DNA from: a virus
Virus record (IMG/VR): IMGVR_UViG_3300028008_000076
Location: 1 to 29,314 of that record
Strand: one strand, 5' to 3'
DNA: 29,314 bases
Numbering within the stretch: position 1 is the first letter of the stretch; the number at the start of each line of letters is the position of its first letter. The notes under the pieces were generated by a model. It was not told where the DNA came from. It saw only the letters and a list, made by a program, of their open reading frames with translations, and made no database searches. Of the stretch, positions 9,939-25,355 are shown piece by piece. Made by a program: the position numbers and the translations under genes.

Positions 9939-9990
9939 TTCTTTTATATAATTATCTTTTAATATACTTTATTTTGTCATTTAGTAAATC

Positions 9991-12735
9991 TTATTCATAA
10001 AGAGATTTAACAAAGCTAGGTATTGTTTCACTATTACAATTAATCTTACCAGCTTTTCTATATCTAAATAGTTTATAATAATAATTAGTTTCTTTAGTTT
10101 TTCTTTCACCAAATTCAAATAACCCTTTTTCATTTAATTTACAAGCATACCCATTTTTATTTGTATATGGGTCTAAAATAACTTCTGGGTTTGTATTTGT
10201 TGGACAGAAACATGAATCAGCTTCATTAACAACTCTATTATTACCTTCTGGGTCTATGAATTTTAAGTAATAAAAACCATTAAGTTCGTATTGGTCTTGT
10301 ATTGTTGGTCCAGCTAACTCCCACTTACAAGAAAGTGTACAACCACAACCCCTTTTACTAATATCTTTTATAATACCTGGTGATTGGCAACAAATGTAAC
10401 CTGTATTTACTTCGGTTAATGGCATTCTACGAGTAGTTATTTGAGTGTTATCGTTCCCTATGAAATATGATGTTACATAATTTGTGTGTAGGTAAGAATA
10501 CCCCTGAGCTTTCGCATCACAACATACTGGGTTTACAAATTCAGTATTAATATAAAATGGCGTACCTAAATTATAAAATGTTTGTTGCCAGTAAAAGTAA
10601 TTTTCACCTCTTATGGTAATATATTTATTTTCTGGGTCTAAATTAACATTTTCACAATCAACAACCTCCGTAGTTTCTTGCTTAAGAAGTGTTACATCAA
10701 TAAAAAGTGATTCATCATCTTCTGGGACATCACACCCACAATCAGTTAATTCAGGTTCTGGACATAAATCTTCATCTATATTAGTTTCTAATAAAACAAC
10801 ATCTGATAAATCAGCACCATCAAAGCTCTGAGCGTCAACATAAGTGTTGCCACTATATTGATTCATTAAACCACTATTGTAATTTGTAAATAAATTTGTT
10901 GTTCCAGTAGTAACTGTTGTTGATGTAAGTGTAAATGCCGAAAAATTAGGTATTATATTATCTAACTGAGCGATATATTCCTTACCGCTATCATATGGAC
11001 CAACATGAGGGTTATTACCTACTAATGTGTATTGAGTTGCAGCTGAACCAGCTGTTTCTCTATACCATCCACCACCTTTTTGGAAGTACATATCTGGTGT
11101 ATCTCTAAAAAACTTAGGATAACCTTCACTATCAACATTATAATTTTCTAAATCAGTATCTAAATCATTATATTCTAATACCTTATAGAATAAATCCATA
11201 TCAATAGGTTCTTTAACCCTGTATATATACTCATTGAAGTTAATTAGACCATCTGGCGTACCAATTAATTTAAAAAAGAACTCAATAGGGTTTCTAGTAC
11301 CCTTAGTTTTCCATATATGAGCTGAATTTAATACAAGTCTTCTCCATAATTCAACTTCAGCCTCTTGTGGTGTATATCCCCTACTATAACCTGGATATGT
11401 TGCTGTACCAACCTTCAAGTAGTTAGTTATTAAATCATTACCAACTAAAGAAGATGTTAATTCCCAACCAAGTATTCTAGCTAAATACTTAACCAGTTGG
11501 TCTGGCATATTATTTTTCTTATCGTATGTTACAATATTAGCGAATTTAATACCATCAATGTATTTTTTAATTTCATCAAACTCTCTACCATATATTCTTA
11601 GAGTTTTATTTACTTTTTCACCTTCGCTATCGATAGTACCACCATCACATGTTGGTGCTGTATCGAAGTCAGTTATAGAATCAGACGTTAAGAATCTAAT
11701 TATTAAATCTGAACATGTAGAATCCTTAGCGTTTGTTACCTCTAATAAATCTGAAACATAATTTATGTACTCAGTAGTGTTAAAATCAATATTATAACCA
11801 TCTGTTACTGGCCAAGTAAGTTTCTTACTAGTACTAATTATATCACCACCATCCGTTTCAATTTTGTATTTATACGTTGAACTGTATTTTGGTGATGTAA
11901 ACCTGTTTAATAGGTTGTTCTCAAACTCACTTAATGAATTAAAATATTTTTCCTCTGTTAATTCATTTGGTTTTATATGATATTCTATTTGTCCACTAGT
12001 AGAACCACTAAATGGGTCACCTATAACTCTAAAATGGATAAAGTCATCTGTATTACTAGTTGAACCTGTAAACTCTATAACGCTATACTCTTTATCATTA
12101 GTTAAAACAGAGTAACTATCATAACTAACCGATAAATTTCTTAACATATTATCTTGGTTAAATGTGTTAAGGGTTGTACCGTTTTGCTTATAATTTATAT
12201 TAAAATTATTAATTATAAAATTAACATCAACTCTAAATGTAGAAGTGTCTGTTATAACATCATAAGAATAATTGTCAAAAGTATTACCAACTACCGTTTG
12301 AAAACCACTATCTCTTAATGGGTTTAAATATAATGATGCTGGCCAATTAGTTATTATATTCTCTAAACTAACCCTTATGTATTCAGTTGCTGAACCAAAA
12401 TAAGCAAAACTACATAATTCAGAACCGTCTAGGTTAAGAGTAGTTTTAATGTTATTATTTAATAATGTATTTGATGAATCGCTAGTTAGGTCTAAGGTTT
12501 GTAATGTATAAAATTTAGTAAATTTCTTCATACTAAATAATCTACTTATTCTACCTTCAGTATTTACTGTAGTTACAAAATTACCAAACGTAAATGTTGA
12601 GTCAGTTCCGTCAGCATCACTTGTTAACTGATTACCAACTAAATCATCACTAAAGTTTCTATACTCAATTCCGTTATCGTAAAAAACTCTTTGAGCGTAA
12701 CCAACTACTTTTATTCTATCATTATTATTAGGCAT
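9991..12735 (-). CDS. Baseplate protein with P2 gpI-like segment and Cys-rich C-terminus (914 aa)
   Basis: Residues about 375-510 read like the core of phage tail protein I and its relatives: a helix with DQLVKYLARILGWEL, then EAEVELWRRLVLNSAHIWK, then the characteristic KGTRNPIEFFFKLIG and a following FNEY. In P2-like phages gpI follows gpJ and forms part of the baseplate wedge; T4 gp7 contains the equivalent part. The first 370 residues are beta-rich and unrecognised. The C-terminal 260 residues are Cys-rich (CC at 738-739 and 782-783; CxC at 666/668, 797/799, 842/844) and share a module with the next gene product. At 914 residues it is much longer than P2 gpI (under 200), so it is a wedge core with added outer domains. 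Order gp25-gp6-gpI supports the call. Confidence 0.65.
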   Translation of the reverse strand: MPNNNDRIKVVGYAQRVFYDNGIEYRNFSDDLVGNQLTSDADGTDSTFTFGNFVTTVNTEGRISRLFSMKKFTKFYTLQTLDLTSDSSNTLLNNNIKTTLNLDGSELCSFAYFGSATEYIRVSLENIITNWPASLYLNPLRDSGFQTVVGNTFDNYSYDVITDTSTFRVDVNFIINNFNINYKQNGTTLNTFNQDNMLRNLSVSYDSYSVLTNDKEYSVIEFTGSTSNTDDFIHFRVIGDPFSGSTSGQIEYHIKPNELTEEKYFNSLSEFENNLLNRFTSPKYSSTYKYKIETDGGDIISTSKKLTWPVTDGYNIDFNTTEYINYVSDLLEVTNAKDSTCSDLIIRFLTSDSITDFDTAPTCDGGTIDSEGEKVNKTLRIYGREFDEIKKYIDGIKFANIVTYDKKNNMPDQLVKYLARILGWELTSSLVGNDLITNYLKVGTATYPGYSRGYTPQEAEVELWRRLVLNSAHIWKTKGTRNPIEFFFKLIGTPDGLINFNEYIYRVKEPIDMDLFYKVLEYNDLDTDLENYNVDSEGYPKFFRDTPDMYFQKGGGWYRETAGSAATQYTLVGNNPHVGPYDSGKEYIAQLDNIIPNFSAFTLTSTTVTTGTTNLFTNYNSGLMNQYSGNTYVDAQSFDGADLSDVVLLETNIDEDLCPEPELTDCGCDVPEDDESLFIDVTLLKQETTEVVDCENVNLDPENKYITIRGENYFYWQQTFYNLGTPFYINTEFVNPVCCDAKAQGYSYLHTNYVTSYFIGNDNTQITTRRMPLTEVNTGYICCQSPGIIKDISKRGCGCTLSCKWELAGPTIQDQYELNGFYYLKFIDPEGNNRVVNEADSCFCPTNTNPEVILDPYTNKNGYACKLNEKGLFEFGERKTKETNYYYKLFRYRKAGKINCNSETIPSFVKSLYE

Positions 12736-12739
12736 ACAA

Positions 12740-13654
12740 TTATACGTTTGCTATATCATCAAATCCCTTAGTGAAATCAATGTTATTAAATCTATTTTCT
12801 TTAACCTCAAATAATGGTTTACCGTCAAACCTATCCTTAATTTCAAATAGGTTAAATTGTTTATAAATATCATTATTAAAGTTGTAGACAGTATAAATAC
12901 CATCTTCAAGACTCTTAGTCTGATTACCAAATAATCCAATAGCTAATGACTCAACATCGTAATCAACCATTTCAACCTCTAAAACAAATGGTGTAAAAAA
13001 TGTATTCGTTATTATTACATCCTGATTTGGTGTGCCAATGAATGGTAATACATTTGGTTTAACATTCGTAGGTGAAGACGGTGAAACTGTACAAAACACT
13101 AAATTAGACGAATCCTCAAACCTATATCTAATAGCTTTTTGACTTGTATCTGATAAGTTCTGATTAACAGGTTCTGATTTATTATTTGAAGTAATTATTC
13201 TAAAAGTATTTTTAATTTTTCTATCTTCAGTAGTTGTGTTTGTTGTAATATACTCAACCCTATAACCAATAAGATTATTGTTTTGGAATTTATCTAGGAA
13301 TGGTGCTAAATTAATATCTGTTGTATCAAAAACAATACCCTTAACATCTGGAAATGCTGATAGTACACCACAATCTGAAATTCTAGTTCTTATTTCAACA
13401 GGTTTAAATACTATAGTGTATATCCCTTTATCACCAAATTCAGTTACAGGTAATCTAAGTGTGTATAAACCACCAAATATCTCAAATGTATTTGAGAGGT
13501 TATTTGGGTTATTAATAGGTATTAAATTACCAGAATCTAGTTTAAAAACATTAGTATTTTGACTCTGCCTATTTGGTGCGTAAAACACAGTTATCTCCAC
13601 GTCACTTGGTGACATGTCTGCGGGTCTAACTGTTCCGTAAATTCCTGTTGCCAT
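12740..13654 (-). CDS. Unrecognised structural-type protein (304 aa)
   Basis: No family is recognised. The sequence is beta-rich with many Asn, Thr, Phe and Ile, no Cys cluster, no membrane segment and no catalytic motif. It begins MATGIYGTVRPADMSPSDVE, and a glycine-containing beta segment (GLYTLRLPVTEFGDKGIYTI) lies near residues 62-82. It ends 4 bases before the gpI-like gene and begins 35 bases after the preceding stop; that gap contains TATATAAATAT. Its place between gp6-like and gpI-like genes suggests a baseplate or tail-tube-end component. Confidence is good that it is a real gene and low for any role. Confidence 0.55.
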   Translation of the reverse strand: MATGIYGTVRPADMSPSDVEITVFYAPNRQSQNTNVFKLDSGNLIPINNPNNLSNTFEIFGGLYTLRLPVTEFGDKGIYTIVFKPVEIRTRISDCGVLSAFPDVKGIVFDTTDINLAPFLDKFQNNNLIGYRVEYITTNTTTEDRKIKNTFRIITSNNKSEPVNQNLSDTSQKAIRYRFEDSSNLVFCTVSPSSPTNVKPNVLPFIGTPNQDVIITNTFFTPFVLEVEMVDYDVESLAIGLFGNQTKSLEDGIYTVYNFNNDIYKQFNLFEIKDRFDGKPLFEVKENRFNNIDFTKGFDDIANV

Positions 13655-13689: not shown

Positions 13690-14475
13690 TTACTTTATTA
13701 TTTTATAGTAACCATTACCATAATTTATTAAATCAGACATATTCTTAATCTCACCCATCTGTAGGTGACTTTGGAATGCCGAATTTATACCTCTATCTAT
13801 ATCAACATCACTATACACTGTAGGTGTTGTTGTTATACCAAAAAGATATTCTTGTTTCGTTATAGCTGAAAGTGTTGTGTTTGTATTATTAAAACCTTCA
13901 CCTTTATAATACATCTCAGTTACTGGTATGTCTATATTACCATTAATACTATCTACTATAGGTCTTGTTAACCCACTATATGTTTTATAAAATATACCTC
14001 TAGTTTGATTTGGGTTATTTGGGTTTATTGTATAACTATCATCACCACCAATAACATATGTAATTGGCATCTGATTATCGTCACTAACCACTCTGTCTAC
14101 AGCTGTATATGAATTACCTTGGTAGTCGTCAACAGTATTATTAGACATATTAAGACCTGGTTGATATACTTGTGTAAATGAATAAGATTTAACTAAATCT
14201 AATTTATCTCTGGTATACCCAGTTATAAATAAAGATGGTGTGAAATAATCTGATAGTGTTTTATTTACATATCTAACATCTGGAGTGTATGGGTCCATTA
14301 TTGTTGTTGTATTAGTGTCTGCTGTAAATTCTACATTAGTACCAATACCCATATCATCCATATCTTGTTTGAAAAATACATTAACATAGAATGTTGTTGC
14401 GGTCATTTGACCCCAAGTATTCTTTTTCCTACTAGTGTAGTTATCTAATGATATTTTTCTTTTTATTATCTCCAT
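13690..14475 (-). CDS. Unrecognised structural-type protein (261 aa)
   Basis: The start overlaps the preceding stop by one base (TAATG at 14477-14473), which points to translational coupling with the 272-residue gene. The N-terminus is basic (KRKISLDNYTSRKKNTWGQ); the rest is rich in Asp, Asn, Thr and Tyr and looks beta-structured, with no Cys and no membrane segment. No family was recognised. Tight coupling with the two genes before it (TAATG and a short overlap) suggests that the products are needed in fixed ratio in one assembly, most likely the baseplate. Confidence 0.55.
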   Translation of the reverse strand: MEIIKRKISLDNYTSRKKNTWGQMTATTFYVNVFFKQDMDDMGIGTNVEFTADTNTTTIMDPYTPDVRYVNKTLSDYFTPSLFITGYTRDKLDLVKSYSFTQVYQPGLNMSNNTVDDYQGNSYTAVDRVVSDDNQMPITYVIGGDDSYTINPNNPNQTRGIFYKTYSGLTRPIVDSINGNIDIPVTEMYYKGEGFNNTNTTLSAITKQEYLFGITTTPTVYSDVDIDRGINSAFQSHLQMGEIKNMSDLINYGNGYYKIIK

Positions 14476-15287
14476 TATTGAACCTTTATCCTATATAATT
14501 GTACTTGTACCTCCCTTTGGTTATTTGAATTAACATTACTACTATAACCTTTATCTATGTAATATCTATACCCATCAACCTCTCTAGTTAATATATATTT
14601 TGTGTATAACCTATTGATAGGACCTGGTTCTATCAATTCGTTTATTGGTAATTCAACGTCTGTACTCATTAAATTATGTGCCTCACCAGTCTTAGCGTTT
14701 AAAAAACTTGCTCTCATATATATCTCTTTACCAACAGTTGGTAATACTTCGTCTTTAAAATAATATAAAAAGAAGCCTTCACCGTTCTTATCTCTATTTT
14801 TAAGTGAATCACCAAGTTTAAACTCTAAGTTTATATTGTTAGGGTCTTGTTCTGTTTCACCAATAAGTACCTTAGGGAATAGTGTTATAAAAAATAATAA
14901 ATTTTGTTTTGTATTAGAATCACTATCATAAAAATCTAACCTTAAAAATGTTTTAGTAAATGAATTTTTAAGGTTTTGTATATCTTCTAATACAAACTCA
15001 GCATTACCCCATGTAGTTGTTGCATAATAATCTTTGTTATCATCATATAAGTTAACCACATATGTTACATCATCAATTAGATTTTTGTCAATATTAATTG
15101 GTAAGAACTTTACTTTTTCATAATCAATTATTTCATTTATTGATTTCTTAACTTCAACATCAACAAATTCATTTTCAATAATCTCTGTTTGACCAGCTAA
15201 ACCAGGGACTTGACTAGTAGGTAAGTTTATGTTGATACTACTATCATCATTTAATGGTCTAATTATTTTATACTTATTAACAAACAT
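14475..15287 (-). CDS. Unrecognised structural-type protein (about 270 aa)
   Basis: The open frame can begin at GTG 15293 or at ATG 15287; I chose the ATG, which gives MFVNKYKII and an 11-base overlap with the end of the 575-residue gene. The protein is acidic and rich in Asn, Asp, Leu and Ile. A hydrophobic stretch in mid-protein (LLFFITLFPKVLIG) is too short and too strand-like to be a convincing membrane segment. The C-terminus is basic (YRYYIDKGY and QREVQVQLYRIKVQ). No known domain is seen. It is coupled to genes on both sides, consistent with a baseplate or tail assembly partner. Confidence 0.55.
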   Translation of the reverse strand: MFVNKYKIIRPLNDDSSININLPTSQVPGLAGQTEIIENEFVDVEVKKSINEIIDYEKVKFLPINIDKNLIDDVTYVVNLYDDNKDYYATTTWGNAEFVLEDIQNLKNSFTKTFLRLDFYDSDSNTKQNLLFFITLFPKVLIGETEQDPNNINLEFKLGDSLKNRDKNGEGFFLYYFKDEVLPTVGKEIYMRASFLNAKTGEAHNLMSTDVELPINELIEPGPINRLYTKYILTREVDGYRYYIDKGYSSNVNSNNQREVQVQLYRIKVQ

Positions 15288-17004
15288 CTTCACTATTTTT
15301 AGTTATAAACTTATCTGTTATTCTTTCACCTCTTGGGTCTGCTGGGTCATCTTTATCAGAATCACCCCCATAATACAACCCATATAAGTTAAATGGGTCT
15401 TGTCTTTTCATAACAAAACATATGTTATCATAAATATAATGAGAATTGTTTGTGAAAGGATATTCTAATGTTTCACCATTAGCTAATGAAGCACCAATCG
15501 TTAATAAATCTCTCCAAATATACTTACCACCATTTAACTCTTCAGAATAATCTGGTATATTACCAGTAGTAGCTGTATACCCTTGCTCTATGAAACTAGA
15601 ATAAAGTCTTATAGGTATTTCATAATGTGGTTTATACATGTACCCTTCTCTTCTAGGTCCCTTTGCTAATGTATTACTTTGTGTACTACTATCTCTTTTA
15701 CTAGTGTTAAATCTATGTAACACATCACTAAGAATATTCTCAACTAATTCAGTCTTATTATATTCAACAACATCACCGTAAAACTCAGTATCTGCTGATA
15801 GGTCCCCCATCTTTACATCTGGGTTTAATGGTGTGTGTGTTGTAAATGGTGTGGAACTACCATTATGTATTCTCCTTATATTAGATAACTTTATATCATT
15901 TAAGTTCCCAGATAGATATTCTAAGTCTAAACCAGATTTAATTTTTGACATAAAGTTATCATCTCTAGTCTTAACAATCGTTAAATATAATTCACTTAAT
16001 GGTCTACCTAAATTATCTTTAAGGTCAGATATATCAACTTCTTTATTAAATGTTACTTGATAATTTTGGTCATTAAATATTGTGTTACTAAAAGCCAATG
16101 GGTCTATAGAATAATCTATATCAGTAAATTTTTTAAACTTTCTTAAATAATACTCAGATTCATATCCATTCACATATCTAACCATTCTACCAGATATGGT
16201 GTTAGTGGTGATAACGGTTGGGTCTACATCTATTGCAAAATAATTTTCTTTATAATCACCATTATCTAACCCAACCCTCTTAACAGTAAATTCACCGTTT
16301 AATTGGTTATCACTCATAGCGCTAATTCTAACTTTTTCACCAGTACTTAATCCATGTCTTGTTGCGGTACCTAACGCAACCATTGATTTACCACCAACTT
16401 CAACCTCTTCAATATTAACGATTAATAAACCGTCTTTAACTATATGGTGTTGGTCATCAATGCTTGATGGATAAGTAATACATATATCCCAATTCTTTTT
16501 AGTATTTGAATTTAAATCAAACCTTTTTTTTGTTGGTTCGATATTAAAAAATTTTTTAATACCTGGTTTAGTTATATCTGGGTCTATAAACCCAAACCAA
16601 CCATCTCTTTCTATTAAATTTTCATTTACAGATTCAAGATAATTTAGTTTTTTATACTTTGAATCAAATTGTTCATTAGAATACGCATTTCTTTTAAAAG
16701 TGTCTTGGTCGAATATATCAAGTCCATTACCATTTTCACTACCCCCATTATCAGAATCCCAGTTTGTGGTACCCGCTGGGTTCATTAATACGTTACTAAA
16801 AAGTGGGTTAATAGTAAAAATAAAACGATATCTAGTACATAAATTTCTTTCAATATTAAGTTGTTCACCTACATTAAGAACATAGTTTATCTCACCTGGT
16901 GGTAATTCTTTGTCATTAGCAACAAAGTTTACATTTGTGAATGTATTTATATTCACATCACTCTTAGATTTACTACTATTTAAATTAATCTTCTTCCTTT
17001 CCAT
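15277..17004 (-). CDS. Virion structural protein, likely baseplate/tail associated (575 aa)
   Basis: The ATG at 17004 overlaps the stop of the 1328-residue gene by one base (TAATG), so the two are coupled. Residues about 210-262 carry ATRHGLSTGEKVRIS, then LNGEFTVKRV and a beta segment. This HGLxxGDxVxI...NGxFTV pattern is a small beta domain seen again and again in phage tail and virion proteins. The N-terminal 60 residues include VLNVGEQLNIERNLCTRYRF. The remainder is mixed and not recognised. No enzyme motif or membrane segment is visible. Its location within the gp6-to-gpI interval fits a baseplate structural role. Confidence 0.6.
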   Translation of the reverse strand: MERKKINLNSSKSKSDVNINTFTNVNFVANDKELPPGEINYVLNVGEQLNIERNLCTRYRFIFTINPLFSNVLMNPAGTTNWDSDNGGSENGNGLDIFDQDTFKRNAYSNEQFDSKYKKLNYLESVNENLIERDGWFGFIDPDITKPGIKKFFNIEPTKKRFDLNSNTKKNWDICITYPSSIDDQHHIVKDGLLIVNIEEVEVGGKSMVALGTATRHGLSTGEKVRISAMSDNQLNGEFTVKRVGLDNGDYKENYFAIDVDPTVITTNTISGRMVRYVNGYESEYYLRKFKKFTDIDYSIDPLAFSNTIFNDQNYQVTFNKEVDISDLKDNLGRPLSELYLTIVKTRDDNFMSKIKSGLDLEYLSGNLNDIKLSNIRRIHNGSSTPFTTHTPLNPDVKMGDLSADTEFYGDVVEYNKTELVENILSDVLHRFNTSKRDSSTQSNTLAKGPRREGYMYKPHYEIPIRLYSSFIEQGYTATTGNIPDYSEELNGGKYIWRDLLTIGASLANGETLEYPFTNNSHYIYDNICFVMKRQDPFNLYGLYYGGDSDKDDPADPRGERITDKFITKNSEDVC

Positions 17005-20000
17005 TATGGTAAATTAATATATTGCTCTTTATTACAGCCATTATCATCTGTAATATCTATAACAGCAGCATTAACACCTTGTTTACTTAAAGATATTAGT
17101 TCTATAAAAGTATGTGAACCAGCACTAATATCATTTAATTCATCTATTGGTGCATCAGAAGGGTTAGTTATATAATCATAGTCATATAAATCAACATAAT
17201 ATGGTGGTGTACCACCATTAATTGTGAATGAAACTTCATATCCAGTACTTCCAGAGATAACTGAGGGTGTTATAGTAATAGCTGGTGGTTCGGTTATTGT
17301 AAACCCTTCTGTAACTGATTGGTTTAACGAGTCAGTATATGTAACTTCGTAATCACCAGCATATAAATTAAATATTTGAGTATCACCTGTTAGTATGATA
17401 CTTCCATTTGAGTCTTTCCATTCAATTGTTGAGTCTCCAGTACCACTACCATCTTGTGGATAAAGCGTTGCTGAACCTGTTTGGTTAAAACACGTTGGTG
17501 ATTCACCTGAAACAGTTATACTAGGTAAGTCTGGTTCAGAAAATGATACTAATTCTTCACATTGTGTTTGTATTATACCATTATCTTTAACAACAACTTT
17601 ATAATCACCAACACCTATATTAGAAAAAGTTGTACCCATTGCTACTGTTGTTGTGTTATTAATAAGGTTATTTGTGTCGTTATCATATAATTCATATGTG
17701 TACCCTGGCACACCACCTTCAACATCAATTATTATTTTACCATCATCTTCACCGTTTTTTGTTATAGGTTCAATTGTTACGTTACATTGAACACCAGTAG
17801 GTCCGCTTACTTGAAATGAACATTCTATTACATTACCGACATTATCAGTAGTTTTAAGGTTATATGTTCCAGAATACAATTCAGTTATTGTTGTAATTCT
17901 ACCGTTATTATTTATATTATTACTAAGTGGGTATTGTTGACCACCAAATGTTGGTCCATTCCATTCATAAGTTAATGGTTCAACACCACCAATAATTTCA
18001 ACCTCAAGTGCACCTGTTGGATTATTACCATCATCATCTGCTATTGAGTATTCTAGTTGGCATTGGAAGTTATCATCAACTTCCTTAATACAAGGTGTCA
18101 AAAATTCTTTATTTAACTTAGTTAGTGCAGTATTATTAGACCTTAAACCAAAATAAAAATAATATGAGTTTTCGTATTGCCAAATAGAGTCACTATCGTC
18201 TGGGAAAACTCTAAAACTTCGATAGTTTTCATCATTGTAGTCGCTACTACTGCTACCATCAGCGGCTAGACTACCACTATCAATATAAACTAGAGGTACA
18301 CTTGTACTCCCAGTTGAATTTAAATAAGAAAAAAGACCTCTAACAAATGGGTTTTCAACATCTTGATTATTTATTTTACCGTTTATTGGTCCTTTACCTT
18401 CATCTTCTCTATTTTCATCAAGACCCATACCTAATTCACATAATCTTTTCACATTATTACAATTTCTATAGTCACCCTTTAGGTAAATTCCTATTGGAAA
18501 TAGATACCCAAATTTAAATAATAATGTTTCACTATCACTAATACCAGAAGTTTCTATTGTAAAATCTACTTTTTCATCAAGTAATGGTGGTATATTAAAT
18601 GTCGTGTCAACTAAAAATCTAGACATCTGTGGTTTACCTTCCCAGTCATATTTATTTATGGAACCTAAATTAATAATATCTGTAGCAAACAACTTATATT
18701 TACTGTGCTTTGAGTGTGATGCATAATATAATTCACTATCAGGGGTTCTCTTTATATACCCTTCTTTTATCTTTTCTGCTCCACCATCACCAAAACTACT
18801 TAATGAATCAATATTACTAAAATTAAATTGTTCGGGTGATTGTGGGCAACTATCAATAATAAAATTATTTTTACATTTATTATCTATTTCACTATCATCA
18901 TTGTAGTCGCCTAAATCTATATTACCACATTCTATGTCACAAAATTTTTCACCATTACTTTTATATTTATACTGTAATAAGAATAAATATAGAGAACCGT
19001 TAACCCAGTCATTATAAAAATCAAGTTTAAACATGTTTAAAGAATCTGCAAGACTAACAGCAGAACATCTTAAATATTCACCTACTATAATAGAACCATT
19101 TTCACCACAGGCTTTAGTACAATCAATCTTTTGACCAGCTTCATTATTTAGCTGGTAACAGTAGATTTTATTTGGGTCATCCTCACTCCCTGGGTCTCCA
19201 TTGGCGAGCGACCATATAAAATATTTTACATTACCACAGCTTAATTTAAAGTAAGGGATTAAAGAATCAGCTTGATATTTTTTACAGGCTTTTTTATCAC
19301 AATCACTACAATCCAAATTTGGATTATTACATAAATCACTTTTATCGATATCTGATAAATCAGCATCTAAATCTTCATAATAAGCTTTAGCACAATCAAT
19401 ATCAGTTTGATTTTCATCTTTTTGATATAATTTATAACACCTACAAGCAGCTCTCTTTTTCTTATTAGTTGGCCACTGTATTAAACAACCTAATTTTTGT
19501 ATTCCCCAAACTGCCTTAACTAATGGGGTTAATATAAGGTTTAATAAATATATTACCGACCTATTTAGTATCCAAACAATAGTAGTTATAGTGCTTAGTA
19601 TTGCCAATAAAAAAAACGCTAAAACATCTACATTAACATCAATTCTATTAAATGGGAATGGACTGTTACTCCCTGGGTCATCGGTAACTTTAATACCAAT
19701 AAAATTTCTATTATCAATCTGCTTATTTGGTTGAACTCTAGTTATTAGATTTTTAACACTATATAGTTTATTCCAAGATAATTCTGTAAAACTTTCATCT
19801 TTGGTTGTACTATCAAAAGTATAATCAGCCTCTTGATGTGATTCTGGGTTGTTTGGTATCAAGAATTTAGCTCTTCTCCTTAATTTACCTTCTGTTCCTG
19901 AAACATCCATACCGATTCTAAACCTAACTTTTGATTTGGTAGGTATACCAATCTTAGGGTTATTAGAAGGAACTAATTCTCCAGATTCAGACGTTACCTT

Positions 20001-20990
20001 ATATTCTAAGTTCATTGGTATCTGATAACACCAAACACCATTTTCATCAATAACCCTACCACCTTCAACATCATACCTTTCTATAGACCCTGTAGGTGTT
20101 TTCCTAATCATTTCAATTTTACCTGGACCAGTTGTTAATTCGTCCATTTTACCTAAATTTTTTCTAGGTCTACAATTCTTATTGACACTATTTTTTTCGC
20201 TGTCTGTAATAACAGAGCCCATAAATATAGCTACAGGGTTTATGTTTGTTAATAAATCAACATCAAGCCTTGTTATACCAATTTCAAATTGTTCTTCATC
20301 ACCCCAAAATGGTATTACATTAACAGAAACTGGTGATACTTTTTTTAATTGCACTGGTGTTACGGTTTCTTCTGTATTTTTAAATTGACTAGGTGATTTG
20401 AATAAGTTTTCATTTGACCCTTCACTAATTAAATTATACGGTTTTTGACTTAAGAAACCTATGTCAGATAAATCAGCTTCAACATGTAGGTTATACGAAC
20501 CAACTGGAATACCAAAAATCATATAGTCACCAGAATCGTTTGTTGTAGTTGTAAACTTATAATATTTACAATAAATCATTTCACTTTCTGGGTTATCTTG
20601 TATTTGTCTTTTTGATTCAAATCTACCTACCGTAGAATAACATTCGTCCTTACCTACATTGTTTGATGGTAAAAGACTATAAGGTAAACCTTCATCATCC
20701 TTATCAGTCACAACTTCAAATGGGTATAAACCAAATATTTCTGGGTCTAGTTTATCTTCTTCATCTATCGGTATAAAAATAGATACTTTAGCGTTAGGTA
20801 CTCCAACACCATTATTAACTATTACTCTACCAATAACAACACCATAGTCAGAACTAAACCTTCTATAGGTTTCATCTTGGGATATTTTTAACGACAAAAC
20901 CTCAATAAAGTCAAAGTCTTGATTTATTGAGATATTAATATTTTGATTTACACCTCCTGGTGTTGTTCTTAACCTGATATTATTAGACAT
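17004..20990 (-). CDS. Giant mosaic host-contact protein with SprB-like repeats (1328 aa)
   Basis: Domains in order: residues about 50-175, a carboxypeptidase-regulatory-like beta sandwich (GRVIVNNGVGVPNAKVSIF ... GDYMIFGIPVGSYNLHVEA); about 230-450, an unassigned region; about 455-475 and 477-495, two strongly hydrophobic segments separated by an Asn-Arg, looking like a membrane hairpin; 502-715, a region with 17 Cys; about 975-1328, four SprB-type/Ig-like repeats, with the hallmark GGVEPLTYEWNG and GGVPGYTYELYD. SprB repeats occur in the gliding adhesin of Flavobacterium and in other Bacteroidota surface proteins. The start is ATG 20990, 2 bases after the stop of the 118-residue membrane protein. 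It most likely protrudes from the tail tip to meet the host surface; the hydrophobic pair is unusual for a virion protein. Alternative: a phage-encoded host-envelope protein. Confidence 0.65.
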   Translation of the reverse strand: MSNNIRLRTTPGGVNQNINISINQDFDFIEVLSLKISQDETYRRFSSDYGVVIGRVIVNNGVGVPNAKVSIFIPIDEEDKLDPEIFGLYPFEVVTDKDDEGLPYSLLPSNNVGKDECYSTVGRFESKRQIQDNPESEMIYCKYYKFTTTTNDSGDYMIFGIPVGSYNLHVEADLSDIGFLSQKPYNLISEGSNENLFKSPSQFKNTEETVTPVQLKKVSPVSVNVIPFWGDEEQFEIGITRLDVDLLTNINPVAIFMGSVITDSEKNSVNKNCRPRKNLGKMDELTTGPGKIEMIRKTPTGSIERYDVEGGRVIDENGVWCYQIPMNLEYKVTSESGELVPSNNPKIGIPTKSKVRFRIGMDVSGTEGKLRRRAKFLIPNNPESHQEADYTFDSTTKDESFTELSWNKLYSVKNLITRVQPNKQIDNRNFIGIKVTDDPGSNSPFPFNRIDVNVDVLAFFLLAILSTITTIVWILNRSVIYLLNLILTPLVKAVWGIQKLGCLIQWPTNKKKRAACRCYKLYQKDENQTDIDCAKAYYEDLDADLSDIDKSDLCNNPNLDCSDCDKKACKKYQADSLIPYFKLSCGNVKYFIWSLANGDPGSEDDPNKIYCYQLNNEAGQKIDCTKACGENGSIIVGEYLRCSAVSLADSLNMFKLDFYNDWVNGSLYLFLLQYKYKSNGEKFCDIECGNIDLGDYNDDSEIDNKCKNNFIIDSCPQSPEQFNFSNIDSLSSFGDGGAEKIKEGYIKRTPDSELYYASHSKHSKYKLFATDIINLGSINKYDWEGKPQMSRFLVDTTFNIPPLLDEKVDFTIETSGISDSETLLFKFGYLFPIGIYLKGDYRNCNNVKRLCELGMGLDENREDEGKGPINGKINNQDVENPFVRGLFSYLNSTGSTSVPLVYIDSGSLAADGSSSSDYNDENYRSFRVFPDDSDSIWQYENSYYFYFGLRSNNTALTKLNKEFLTPCIKEVDDNFQCQLEYSIADDDGNNPTGALEVEIIGGVEPLTYEWNGPTFGGQQYPLSNNINNNGRITTITELYSGTYNLKTTDNVGNVIECSFQVSGPTGVQCNVTIEPITKNGEDDGKIIIDVEGGVPGYTYELYDNDTNNLINNTTTVAMGTTFSNIGVGDYKVVVKDNGIIQTQCEELVSFSEPDLPSITVSGESPTCFNQTGSATLYPQDGSGTGDSTIEWKDSNGSIILTGDTQIFNLYAGDYEVTYTDSLNQSVTEGFTITEPPAITITPSVISGSTGYEVSFTINGGTPPYYVDLYDYDYITNPSDAPIDELNDISAGSHTFIELISLSKQGVNAAVIDITDDNGCNKEQYINLP
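17007..18068 (-). repeat. Four degenerate SprB/Ig-like protein repeats
   Basis: The 3' part of the 1328-residue gene encodes four units of about 80-95 residues, beginning near residues 975, 1066, 1155 and 1237. Each has a beta-sandwich pattern with GG-x-P-x-(L/Y)-(T/Y)-Y or an equivalent strand in the middle, a (Y/V)(S/G/A)G(T/D)Y turn and a terminal strand followed by Pro. The DNA copies are too diverged to be direct nucleotide repeats, so recent slippage is unlikely. Confidence 0.65.
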
Positions 20991-20992
20991 AT

Positions 20993-21349
20993 TTAACTTT
21001 TAACATCATCCACATATAACAATTCGATTTCAGATTCATCTAATACACCATCGTCATCATCATCATCATCATCATCATCATCGTGTTCATCTTCTTTATT
21101 TTTTTTCTTAAACATATTAGTTAGTTTTGATATGTCTTTAGCAACATCCATAATACCGTTACTGAATGATACCTTAATTGACATATACAAACCAATAGGT
21201 ATTGCTAATACTGTAATAATAGCAAATAAAAAAACTGATAATAAAATTCTTAAAACAAAATGTGTTACTTTGGTTATAGGACCTCTTTCAATCTTTAACT
21301 CATTTAAACTAGTAACACTATTATTCTTATTTTTACAATTACAACCCAT
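20993..21349 (-). CDS. Small membrane protein with Asp-rich tail (118 aa)
   Basis: It has three parts. Residues 1-30 are short and polar and include MGCNCKNK (C3, C5), a possible metal- or thiol-reactive tip with no signal peptidase site. Residues about 31-58 form a long hydrophobic segment (VLRILLSVFLFAIITVLAIP and onward), one or two membrane helices. Residues 81-118 are charged: basic KKKNK, then eleven Asp in a row (90-100), then more acidic residues. The gene ends 2 bases before the start of the 1328-residue gene, which itself has a hydrophobic pair, so the two could act together at the host membrane. No family is recognised; a small envelope-acting or assembly protein is possible. Confidence 0.6.
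   Translation of the reverse strand: MGCNCKNKNNSVTSLNELKIERGPITKVTHFVLRILLSVFLFAIITVLAIPIGLYMSIKVSFSNGIMDVAKDISKLTNMFKKKNKEDEHDDDDDDDDDDDGVLDESEIELLYVDDVKS
21050..21082 (-). repeat. GAT-type trinucleotide tract encoding Asp11
   Basis: Eleven Asp codons in a row (ten GAT, one GAC) occur in the 118-residue membrane protein. The pure run of nine GAT codons (21056-21082) is a microsatellite that could gain or lose units in frame by replication slippage, changing the length of the acidic tract without breaking the gene. Confidence 0.9.
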
Positions 21350-21411: not shown

Positions 21412-23229
21412 TTACTTTACCCTTATTTTCACGTCAGTTTCTGGATATTTTATCTCAAACATACCTATTGGGTCACCGAAAAGTGTGTATTCACCCAATA
21501 AATCTATTTGTCTTGTTGCATCATCAATGTATGGTTGTGGTATCTCATTTGATGAGTATTTACCTTGACCAACCTTATTATAAACTCTAAGGTCAACAAC
21601 ATTTAAAACACCAGGAACATTATTAATATCCTCAATTAGTTGAGCTAAATAAATGTTATCACCCATACCCCACTTATTTATATCAAAATAACTTGTTATC
21701 GTTGATATAGCTTGAGTTATTATTTCTGATTGTGAAAACTGCTTATCAACAAATAAATCAACTTCAAATCCTAAATTATATACTCTACCATTATCAACTT
21801 CAACATAATCATTAAGCATTCTATAATCAGATAAATATGTTGCTATATTTCTCTTAAGTGTTGTTGTTGATGTTGTACTTAATTTTGAACCGCTATCAAG
21901 AGTTAATGTATATATTTTAACCTTATTTTGTTCTTCGATAACATTATTTCTAAAAGGAATTCCAAATTCACCTGGCATTAATGCTATTCTTGTTTTATAA
22001 TCTTCAATAGTTACACATCTTTCTTGAGATGCGAAATTATATCTAACTAAGTTTCTTAATTCTTCAATACTAGGTTCATCTTTACCACCTAAAGCTGGTA
22101 ACGGGTTATTTACTTTCAATGAATTAATTACTTGTTGGTTTATTGTAGTATTTGACCCATTAACAAACATTTCTTTTTTAGTTACAGTAGATATTGTGTT
22201 AGGTCCAACATTAGTGTCTGAACCACCACCAACTCTATAAGAAATAAACATGGTTTTATTAGCACTAAGTGTAAGCCCTAACGCTGTATTATTAATAAAA
22301 TCACCAATTCTATCAACCAACTGCTTATTTACGTCAAAATCACACAATGATGAAATATCTTCAGTACCACCACCAAAAATTATCTTAGTAAAACCATTAT
22401 CTGTATATTCTCTTATAAATCTTTGGTCTATTCTTTTAAATTTACCTGGTTTTACTGTTGAATTATCACTTAATTTTGTATTATCTGGCACAAAAATTAA
22501 ATCATCAGCTAATGCGTTAACCTCATACCATCTAAGGTCTTCATTGTAAAATTGACCTGTACTAGGTGTGGTTGTATAGTTTGTACCATCTAGCGTTATG
22601 ATTGAATTAATAGATAAAACATTATCATCTGGTAAAACAACCTCAAAGAATGGTCTAACATCAGCGGCACTTATAGTTCTACTGAATATCTTAGTTATAC
22701 CATTATAAACCATTTCCCTCTTTGTAATAGTATAATTTATTATGTTATCATTATTATCTAAATTAGGTACTACGAGTCTATTTGGTATTCCTCCAGTTGT
22801 AAATGGAGATGAGAAATCAATTTCTTCCATTGTTTCGAATATCTTACCAGCACCACTAACTTGAGCCCCAATAGATAATACTGGACAATAAGAAATATCA
22901 AACGTATCACCAAGTACTGGCACTGTTACTGAAAAGTCTACTATAGTTACTGACGGTTTCTTACCTGGGACTCTTAACCCAAAAGTTCTAGCCATAGCTA
23001 GTAATGAATTTCTTTCTTGAGCAAAATCGATTTGTGTCTCTTGGAACATTCTGTCAGTATGGAATGATAACATATCACCAACAGCAGCATTTAATTCTAA
23101 AAGCATCATACCAACTGACGCATCATTAAAATCATTAAAAATATCTGGGTAATATTCTCTTACAAAATTAACTAATTCTGTTCTTACATCAGCAAAGTTT
23201 CTACTATAATAATTTATTTTACGTGCCAT
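21412..23229 (-). CDS. Baseplate wedge protein, gp6 / Baseplate_J-like
   Basis: Homologous to T4 gp6 and the P2 gpJ family, which form the wedge ring of the contractile-tail baseplate. The N-terminus (about residues 5-75) has the typical YSRNFADVRTELVNFVREYY, then NDASVGMMLLELNAAVGDMLSFHTD, matching the gp6 helix that begins each wedge subunit. Later, ERCVTIEDYKTRIALMPGEFG and a C-terminal beta/alpha region match the Baseplate_J pattern. The frame is open back to a TTG at 23256, but the ATG at 23229 is preferred: it yields MARKINYY directly before the conserved block and is preceded by AAAAAGAAATGTTAT. Length 605 residues is close to T4 gp6. It follows gp25 in transcription order, interrupted by the endonuclease gene. 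Confidence 0.9.
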   Translation of the reverse strand: MARKINYYSRNFADVRTELVNFVREYYPDIFNDFNDASVGMMLLELNAAVGDMLSFHTDRMFQETQIDFAQERNSLLAMARTFGLRVPGKKPSVTIVDFSVTVPVLGDTFDISYCPVLSIGAQVSGAGKIFETMEEIDFSSPFTTGGIPNRLVVPNLDNNDNIINYTITKREMVYNGITKIFSRTISAADVRPFFEVVLPDDNVLSINSIITLDGTNYTTTPSTGQFYNEDLRWYEVNALADDLIFVPDNTKLSDNSTVKPGKFKRIDQRFIREYTDNGFTKIIFGGGTEDISSLCDFDVNKQLVDRIGDFINNTALGLTLSANKTMFISYRVGGGSDTNVGPNTISTVTKKEMFVNGSNTTINQQVINSLKVNNPLPALGGKDEPSIEELRNLVRYNFASQERCVTIEDYKTRIALMPGEFGIPFRNNVIEEQNKVKIYTLTLDSGSKLSTTSTTTLKRNIATYLSDYRMLNDYVEVDNGRVYNLGFEVDLFVDKQFSQSEIITQAISTITSYFDINKWGMGDNIYLAQLIEDINNVPGVLNVVDLRVYNKVGQGKYSSNEIPQPYIDDATRQIDLLGEYTLFGDPIGMFEIKYPETDVKIRVK

Positions 23230-23334
23230 AACATTTCTTTTTACAATAAATATCAATATAACGATAAATTTGTAAAAATAAATATTTTTAATTATATTTG
23301 TTAATAGTTATAAGTACGTAACATTAGGAATGAT
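23230..23334. promoter_or_regulatory. Divergent gap between gp6 and endonuclease genes
   Basis: These 105 bases separate two divergent start codons and are very AT-rich, so promoters for both directions could lie here. AATAAATAT occurs twice (about 23246 and 23278), but no certain Bacteroidota promoter (TTG plus TAnnTTTG) or phage promoter could be fixed. The gap contains no hairpin that I could see. Confidence 0.35.
23326..23329 (+). promoter_or_regulatory. Shine-Dalgarno AGGA of the endonuclease gene
   Basis: AGGA lies 5 bases before ATG 23335. The resident phage genes in the window mostly have A-rich leaders without such a core, so this site supports the start and marks the gene as different in style. 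Confidence 0.6.
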
Positions 23335-24960
23335 ATGAAAAAAAAGTCTCAGGAAGAATTTATTAAGGAAATTATGAATATCCATAGTGATAAGTATGAT
23401 TATTCAAAAGTTAAATATATAAATAACAATACTAACGTTATTGTTATATGTCCAGAGCATGGTGAATTTTTAAAAAAACCAATACACTTGATTAATAGGG
23501 GACAAGGTTGTCCTTTATGTTCAAGAGATGAGATAAGTTCTAAACAAAGAATGGGTTTAAATAATTTTATAACCAAAGCTAAAGAAATACATGGTGATAA
23601 GTATGATTATTCTTTAGTTAATTATAAAAATAATAGAACTAAGGTTAAGATTGTGTGTCCAGAACATGGTGAGTTTGAGCAATTACCAACTAATCATTTA
23701 AGAGGTAAAGGGTGTAAGTATTGTGGTGGAACTAGTAAAATGGATACAAAACTTTTCATAATTAAGGCTAAAGAAATACATGGGGATAAATATGATTACT
23801 CTTTAGTTAATTATAAAGTAAGTAGAGACCCAGTAACCATAATATGTTCAGAACATGGTGAGTTTGAACAAACACCTAATAATCATTTATCTAAGGGTCA
23901 AGGTTGTCCAAAATGTTTAGGTAAGATAATTGACACTGAAACTTTTATTAATAAAGCTAAGGTTATTCATGGAGATAAATATGATTACTCTAAGGTAGAG
24001 TATTCTAGTCAATTTGAAAAAATTAAAATAATCTGTCCAGAACATGGTGAAATTAACGTAACACCTCATTATCATATAAATGGGTTTGGTTGTAAATCTT
24101 GTTCTAATAGTTTGTCTTTATTAGAAAAGTCTATACATTCTTTTATAACTGATTTAAAAATTAATTGTATTGAAAATGATAAAGCAGTGCTTAACGGTAA
24201 AGAGTTAGACATATATATACCATCACATAAGGTAGCCATTGAATTTAATGGTCTTTATTGGCATTCTAATTTATTTGTTGATAATGACTATCATTTAAAT
24301 AAAACTGAAGAATGTGAGAAGTTAGGTATTCAACTTGTTCATATATTTGAAGATGAATGGCTCCATAATGAAGGTATTGTTAAATCTAGAATTAAGAATA
24401 TACTAGGTCTTACTAAAAATAAATTTTATGCTAGAAAGTGTGAAATTAAGGAAGTACCAGTAAAGGTTAAAACTAAATTCTTAAATGATAATCACATACA
24501 AGGTGCCATTGGTAGTAAAGTAAATTTAGGTTTGTATCATAATGATGAATTACTATCTATTATGACTTTTGGTAAAAGACCTATATTAAATTCGTTAGAA
24601 TTTGAATTATTAAGGTTTTGTAATAAATTAGATACAAGTGTTGTTGGTGGTGCTTCTAAGTTACTTAAACACTTTATTAAACATTATCAACCGAAAGAAA
24701 TAATAAGTTATGCTGATAGAAGGTGGAGTCAAGGTAATATGTATGAACAGTTAAAATTTAAGTTTATTGAAAATACACAACCTAATTGGTTTGTAGTTAA
24801 AGGTAAATATAGAGAAAATAGAGTTAATTATCAAAAACACAGGTTAGTTGAAATGGGTTATGATAAAAATAAAACAGCTAACCAAATACTTAATGAAAAT
24901 AATATGTATAAAATATATGATTGTGGAACTAAAAAATTTACTTTATATTTACAATATTAA
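23335..24960 (+). CDS. Free-standing homing endonuclease with DUF723 repeats and Vsr/EDxHD-like domain
   Basis: Four repeats of about 55 residues (about 7-63, 77-131, 140-195, 203-257) have the form IHGDKYDYS...(V/I)(I/V)C-P/S-EHGE...GxGCxxC. These are DUF723-type units, each with a Cys-x-x-His and a Cys-x-x-Cys that could hold zinc and help bind DNA. Residues about 262-355 look like a Vsr/EDxHD nuclease core: E265, D292 in ELDIYIP, then AIEFNGLYWHS (H310), then KLGIQLVHIFEDEW. Residues 380-541 are a C-terminal region often attached to such phage endonucleases (YADRRWSQGNMYEQLKF). It is the only plus-strand gene here, lying between the gp25 and gp6 genes, with its stop 5 bases from the gp25 stop. 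It probably promotes its own spread by cutting phage genomes lacking it. Target and activity are not shown. Confidence 0.85.
   Translation: MKKKSQEEFIKEIMNIHSDKYDYSKVKYINNNTNVIVICPEHGEFLKKPIHLINRGQGCPLCSRDEISSKQRMGLNNFITKAKEIHGDKYDYSLVNYKNNRTKVKIVCPEHGEFEQLPTNHLRGKGCKYCGGTSKMDTKLFIIKAKEIHGDKYDYSLVNYKVSRDPVTIICSEHGEFEQTPNNHLSKGQGCPKCLGKIIDTETFINKAKVIHGDKYDYSKVEYSSQFEKIKIICPEHGEINVTPHYHINGFGCKSCSNSLSLLEKSIHSFITDLKINCIENDKAVLNGKELDIYIPSHKVAIEFNGLYWHSNLFVDNDYHLNKTEECEKLGIQLVHIFEDEWLHNEGIVKSRIKNILGLTKNKFYARKCEIKEVPVKVKTKFLNDNHIQGAIGSKVNLGLYHNDELLSIMTFGKRPILNSLEFELLRFCNKLDTSVVGGASKLLKHFIKHYQPKEIISYADRRWSQGNMYEQLKFKFIENTQPNWFVVKGKYRENRVNYQKHRLVEMGYDKNKTANQILNENNMYKIYDCGTKKFTLYLQY
23353..24105 (+). 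repeat. Four tandem DUF723-type coding repeats
   Basis: Units 2 to 4 share long identical stretches such as HGDKYDYS and (C)PEHGE, while unit 1 is a little more diverged. Spacing is about 190-205 bases. Similarity is clear in protein and partly in DNA, consistent with tandem duplication of a zinc-binding DNA-recognition module. Confidence 0.85.
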
Positions 24961-24965
24961 TTTTT

Positions 24966-25355
24966 TTAAATCTCTATAATGATAAAGTTTGTTTCTTGGA
25001 AAACACCCTCTGTAACTGTATAATCAATCCTAACCTTAGCAGCGTGTTCACTTCTTTCGCTTTGTTCAACACTAACTTCGTTTATTTGTAGGTTAGGTAA
25101 GTATTTTTTCACTGTTTCAGTTATTTCATTTTTTATATCGTTTCTAGTTAATGTATCGTTTGGTTCAAATATGTATTTTAATAAATTAGTTCCGAAGTCT
25201 GGCATATAAAGTCTTTCACCTTTCTTAGTTAGGATTAAATGCATTAGGTCTGACTTAATAGCCTTACTATCTTCATTATTTAATAATATGAAATCACCTC
25301 TATTACTTTCTTTAAATGGAAATGCTATATTTATAAACTTACCTTTTTGAGCCAT
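24966..25355 (-). CDS. Baseplate wedge protein, gp25 / P2 gpW-like
   Basis: 129 residues, the usual size of the gp25/IraD fold family. In T4, gp25 joins the wedge subunits to the central hub and sheath; the P2 equivalent is gpW. Conserved features are the helix SKAIKSDLMHLILTKKGERL followed by PDFGTNLLKYIFEPND (about residues 30-66), and the C-terminal beta strands with AAKVRIDYTV. The acidic residues linked to the family's old lysozyme label cannot be judged here. The ATG at 25355 is preceded by TATTTATCTATAAAGTAATTGTT. It follows the terminator after nrdA, so it should be the first gene of the baseplate transcription unit. Confidence 0.92.
   Translation of the reverse strand: MAQKGKFINIAFPFKESNRGDFILLNNEDSKAIKSDLMHLILTKKGERLYMPDFGTNLLKYIFEPNDTLTRNDIKNEITETVKKYLPNLQINEVSVEQSERSEHAAKVRIDYTVTEGVFQETNFIIIEI

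Follow-up and report, generated by a model that had tools for sequence, protein, structure and literature searches.

The passage of the DNA of contractile-tailed phages across the host envelope, and across the inner membrane in particular, is to our knowledge poorly understood, and membrane-type segments of phage tails are known mostly from tape measure proteins. For phage T5, it has been proposed that, after triggering, 46 hydrophobic residues of the tape measure protein pb2 build a channel in the outer membrane (PMC10038345). Deletions were used to probe the hydrophobic regions of the tape measure protein of TP901-1, the first of which proved necessary for infection (PMC5099701). To the authors of that study, chaperone recruitment and assembly seemed a likelier role for these regions than membrane insertion (PMC5099701).

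The window analyzed here is a viral record of 29,314 bases in which an open reading frame with an ATG start (17004-20990, stop included) encodes a protein of 1328 residues, BIG. All features of BIG and of its neighbor SMALL lie on the minus strand. BIG resembles T5 pb2 (taken with the hub protein pb3) in that a hydrophobic stretch of a tail protein is proposed to enter the host membrane. However, pb2 is the tape measure protein of a siphophage, no small partner gene is described there (PMC10038345), and no sequence relation between the two was seen. Hydrophobic regions in a tail protein are likewise shared with TP901-1, whose tape measure protein has repeats and a role in tail length and is not a baseplate protein beside gp6. 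The T4-like wedge module (gp25, gp6) of Flavobacterium phage immuto and Microcystis phage Mel-JY01 is of the same type as that around BIG, and a profile search of their gp6 regions gave no match to a BIG relative. A distinct window protein of 914 residues (9991-12735, minus strand) has a KTKGT-containing domain in common with the large protein that follows gp6 downstream in Mel-JY01 (E = 2e-8) and, weakly, in immuto; the large protein is presumably gp7 or tail protein I-like. BIG was rejected as the large wedge protein that generally comes after gp6, since the 914-residue protein matches instead and BIG is without a profile match.

The window also encodes a gp6-like (21412-23256) and a gp25-like (24966-25355) baseplate wedge protein, both on the minus strand and used as markers of the module, together with ribonucleotide reductase subunits, a DnaB-like helicase fragment and an HNH endonuclease. 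In the relatives, the order gp25-gp6-SMALL-BIG-g575-g272-g261-g304-g914 persists to the ends of the loci wherever its genes can be recognized, and relatives of gp25 and gp6 adjoin BIG in nearly all loci, as in a T4-like contractile baseplate module. This synteny is what points to BIG as a probable structural protein of the virion. It would assign BIG to the baseplate module and to no finer position, such as the tail hub named in the preliminary description of this DNA. The 575- and 272-residue proteins (window 14475-17004) have relatives that differ strongly in length, about 527-1193 and 269-1277 residues, respectively; therefore, BIG is not the sole expandable protein of the module. The HNH/homing-type endonuclease gene stands between gp25 and gp6 on the opposite strand (23335-24960, plus strand), and similar endonucleases occupy varying spots of the module in relatives, for example between gp6 and BIG in L004, L005, L006 and L037. 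Upstream of gp25 in L001 and L003, the large ribonucleotide reductase subunit is spread over several open reading frames (521, 328 and 219 residues in L003), suggesting intervening sequences. In L063, BIG itself is divided into two open reading frames (9941-10354 and 10415-13591); the gene may be broken, carry an intervening sequence or contain a sequencing error.

Relatives of BIG confirmed by tblastn are abundant in viral contigs, with 160 to 590 stretches per scan, and filtering leaves 118 distinct loci. The contigs reach 412,753 bases (~413 kb), a size that argues that many members of the family are jumbo phages. Metagenome-assembled contigs with BIG were binned as Bacteroidales and Paludibacteraceae and others as Clostridiales and Mycoplasmatota; because such labels cannot be trusted for phage contigs, a Bacteroidota host is no more than likely. 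The family is common to many giant phages of gut and lake, whose hosts are probably Bacteroidota. When 50,697 named phages were searched with the window BIG, there was one weak match, to the SprB part only, and a search of the same phages with a more typical relative gave none. The only named relative was found by a structure search of BFVD with the BIG model. This protein, A0A8S5LA66 of Myoviridae sp. ctPuP5, is uncharacterized and full-length, and its fold matches that of BIG throughout the core (E = 2.7e-74, TM 0.70, 29% identity); judged by the predicted models, it is a true member of the family. A literature search found no mention of ctPuP5 by name, and searches on these phages and on SprB repeats in phages returned nothing relevant.

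The preliminary description had presented the 1328-residue product as a mosaic of modules. The reading frame was confirmed. However, the term is misleading, as residues 1-975 (18066-20990) behave as a single conserved core, with dozens of invariant positions that include WCYQIPMNL, IEMIRKT, DWxNG and an NS...FG block. The most invariant motif of the family is GVWCYQIPMNLEY, at residues 318-330 (20001-20039). A one-off mosaic was rejected because the core is kept as a unit across the family. The modules do not all stay together: the core is constant, the C-terminal tail differs between members and the hydrophobic insert is optional. No curated model of Pfam, PHROG or NCBIfam spans the core, the matches being confined to the end domains, and searches by sequence found no solved relatives. 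Near the amino end, residues 49-173 (20472-20846) form a predicted beta-sandwich of the carboxypeptidase-regulatory/CnaB-like type. For the carboxypeptidase-regulatory-like domain claimed earlier, the Pfam model PF13620 scores 23 bits, below its cutoff of 32.3 bits, but the predicted core matches the beta-sandwiches of SdrD-B/CnaB pilins (Foldseek E ~1e-4 to 1e-5, with low global TM-scores), which makes a domain of the CnaB/carboxypeptidase-regulatory class credible.

The tail that follows the core is 0-1883 residues long across the family and evolves about twice as fast as the core; its identity is typically 30-55% where that of the core is 66-80%. Since the tails diverge faster than the cores, as expected of host-facing parts, they are probably exposed to the host.

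The facultative insert occupies residues 449-657 (19020-19646; 209 residues, 13 Cys) between the conserved PFPFN and FYNDW. In most relatives it measures ~115-260 residues and has several Cys, up to 18; in one clade it has shrunk to ~42-68 residues with few or no Cys and no hydrophobic helix. The insert was delimited with loose flanking motifs, strict motifs having missed many rows. It starts with a hydrophobic helix, and the larger clades add a recognizable Cys mini-domain, for example CPDLENWYFAPGC or SEFCDDG...YYPGC, as well as a helix with CxExxLAxE that runs into the next strand. The 17 Cys previously counted in this part of BIG were all found, 13 of them inside the insert.

The hydrophobic region of BIG has a best 19-residue Kyte-Doolittle mean of 2.47, the highest among the large proteins of the window; the next is NrdB with 1.98. 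The region had been described as a hairpin. The hydrophobicity was borne out, but AlphaFold2 predicts one continuous helix of 38-48 residues, with no turn, in both proteins modeled as monomers. In the window BIG the helix spans residues 456-503 (19482-19625; mean pLDDT 70.5, pTM 0.73), and in the better modeled L055 relative residues 464-501 (mean pLDDT 84.0, pTM 0.84; helix blocks 79-93). Judged by secondary structure, both monomer models thus show a long helix here, and the refuting outcome named in the preliminary description, a hydrophobic region within the core of a normal globular fold, was not seen. In the average over 62 relatives, polar residues are tolerated along a stripe of the helix that repeats every 3.5-3.6 residues (permutation p 0.0005, 37 positions). 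An Asn within it (N476 in the window) is present in 62/62 relatives, and Lys is tolerated at its middle. The window helix is more uniformly hydrophobic than the family average; judging from the models and the stripe, a long amphipathic helix is a better description of the family than a hairpin.

Directly upstream of BIG lies the gene of SMALL (20993-21349), a protein of 118 residues with an N-terminal MGCNCK, a predicted membrane helix and an acidic tail. The CNCK motif is at 21332-21343, and the membrane segment comprises residues 35-58 (21176-21247) with the central Pro51. Membrane-type segments were judged by hydropathy instead of a trained topology predictor. In the first set of 97 insert-bearing relatives, the hydrophobic run has a median of 24 residues free of charged or Asn/Gln residues, a Pro lies inside it in all 97, and polar residues are nearly absent from about 20 positions in a row. 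With this conserved, uncharged, bilayer-spanning segment, SMALL is predicted to be an integral membrane protein. BLAST with the window protein finds few relatives, and they were recognized by position, hydropathy and the CxC motif, which was a search criterion; homology of SMALL across all clades, resting on these features rather than on an alignment, is likely. One sub-clade has a second short hydrophobic protein between gp6 and SMALL with a motif like TxEPxxxKxVTxRKxxRIRxLTK (L044, 9418-9717; L062, 9409-9684; L066, 9464-9784; L073, 9425-9715; L078, 9396-9680).

The presence of the insert is coupled with that of the membrane helix of SMALL. A counterpart of SMALL lies upstream of BIG in 102 of the 102 insert-bearing loci having upstream sequence, and its helix exceeds the hydropathy cutoff of 1.8 in 101 of these. 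The sole exception, L237, has a hydropathy of 1.71 and still possesses a hydrophobic segment with Pro. The membrane-type helix was found in none of 13 insert-lacking loci, of which seven retain SMALL, its CxC still present and its hydrophobic part weakened or cut short; in the other six the gene was not found. No other strongly hydrophobic protein replacing the module was seen in the neighboring region of the insert-lacking loci. Among the module proteins recognized by BLAST, only BIG and SMALL attain membrane-type hydropathy; the recognized relatives of gp25, gp6, g575, g272, g261, g304 and g914 do not attain the level of these two, and none reaches 2.0. Across the first 42 loci, the hydropathy of the insert did not vary significantly with that of SMALL (Spearman 0.21, p 0.18), and the coupling is therefore one of presence and absence only.

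A branch with a support of 85 separates the insert-lacking rows from all others, which corresponds to a single state change of the insert. The primary association therefore has just one independent contrast and proves little alone. The SMALL gene, by comparison, was lost four separate times, all within the insert-lacking clade and never in the remaining 82% of the tree length, a count that could shift by one or so because the tree was built in a quick mode and several insert-lacking rows sit on long branches. That clade makes up 18% of the tree length, and the probability of four losses falling there by chance is ~0.001. Statistically, nothing argues more strongly for a dependence of SMALL on the insert than these four losses, with the root not fixed and loss of the module, as opposed to gain, being an assumption. 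The data support the view that the BIG insert and SMALL would act as one unit. The preliminary description had already hinted that the hydrophobic region and its 118-residue neighbor are linked; the two occur together in every informative locus and are lost in the same clade. A membrane role, which that description also raised, has gained support from this co-occurrence and joint loss and is still to be called possible. Coordination between the CxC of SMALL and the Cys of the insert was also considered and is disfavored, since the CxC outlasts the insert in insert-lacking loci.

From these observations we infer that BIG and SMALL belong to the virion, that they pair physically and that the pair inserts into a membrane upon infection. 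The core of BIG would dock to the baseplate, and the fast-evolving C-terminal tail, Ig/SprB-like in the window, would face the host. In most members the core would carry a hydrophobic module of two parts, to which BIG contributes the long, mostly hydrophobic amphipathic helix followed by the Cys-rich mini-domain, and SMALL the Pro-kinked membrane helix behind its N-terminal CxC motif. The helix of BIG and SMALL would be paired and stowed in the baseplate, and upon infection the module would enter the host envelope, where it might anchor the tail or line a passage. Entry into the envelope is proposed because of the analogy with T5 pb2. That BIG is a lineage-specific structural protein in the contractile, T4-like baseplate of giant phages that form a large group, probably of Bacteroidota, and that the two-part module enters the host envelope on infection, is given a joint probability of about 0.42. 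A mixed bundle in the host membrane, built of the amphipathic helices of BIG and the Pro-kinked helices of SMALL and anchoring the tail or lining a passage, with one clade that discarded or never had the device, is unlikely as it stands. Several findings argue against envelope entry. The helix of BIG, amphipathic and with Lys tolerated in its middle, would suit a soluble bundle as well, the insert-lacking clade manages without the module, and the CxC of SMALL remains in seven loci that have neither the insert nor the membrane helix, so that the CxC serves more than the insert.

In the main alternative, SMALL would be a partner or chaperone dedicated to assembly that shields or folds the helix of BIG while the baseplate is built, with the helices ending as a protein-protein contact and never in a membrane. 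The TP901-1 tape measure protein offers a precedent, as its authors favored chaperone recruitment and assembly (PMC5099701). The 3.5-residue stripe fits a helical bundle, and a dedicated partner predicts the loss of SMALL after loss of the insert, as was found. However, a complete Pro-kinked helix of membrane type, with its median uncharged run of 24 residues, exceeds the need of a typical soluble chaperone, and the CxC end of SMALL outlives the insert. This alternative is regarded as somewhat unlikely.

Less probable still is that BIG and SMALL act inside the infected cell, tethering baseplate assembly to the host inner membrane, with the membrane parts having no role in entry. Some tailed phages assemble virion parts at a membrane. 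By eye, neither BIG nor SMALL has an obvious signal peptide, and basic residues flank the helix on both sides in the relatives of SMALL, which makes an inner membrane location possible. The fast-evolving tails of BIG, however, suggest a host-facing place in the particle, and tethering of this kind is considered quite improbable.

The composition of the tail was also evaluated. SprB repeats (L001), BspA-type LRR (L015) and Fn3 (L012) were identified, most of the scanned tails are of no recognized type and three cores end without any tail. In the window BIG, the Pfam SprB model (PF13573) scores 32.6 bits, above its cutoff of 28 bits (E = 6e-8), in the C-terminal tail only. The four SprB-like repeats reported earlier can be laid over 17007-18062 as tandem Ig-like units, namely unit 1 (residues 977-1064, 17799-18062), unit 2 (1069-1153, 17532-17786), which is the best Pfam SprB match, unit 3 (1157-1236, 17283-17522) and unit 4 (1237-1328, 17007-17282), the weakest; however, similarity beyond that of shuffled sequences holds only for units 1-3 and for the pair 2/4. 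Bacterial surface proteins with SprB repeats or CnaB domains have the same domain types that BIG has at its two ends, building blocks in common and nothing more. The earlier idea that BIG imitates or binds host gliding adhesins through these repeats deserves hardly any weight, for, although the Pfam match is present in the window and L001, SprB repeats are Ig-like spacers of many Bacteroidota surface proteins and among the scanned relatives were seen only in the window and its nearest relatives L001-L003, the other tails being of the LRR, Fn3, unrecognized or missing kinds listed above.

BIG belongs to a widespread family that has not yet been annotated, and its members divide clearly into a fixed core and a tail that can be exchanged and probably faces the host. 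It would represent a case in which a membrane-type segment belongs to a protein of the baseplate module and is tied to a separate, small, predicted membrane protein. The natural clade that has neither the insert nor the membrane helix of SMALL can serve as a control.
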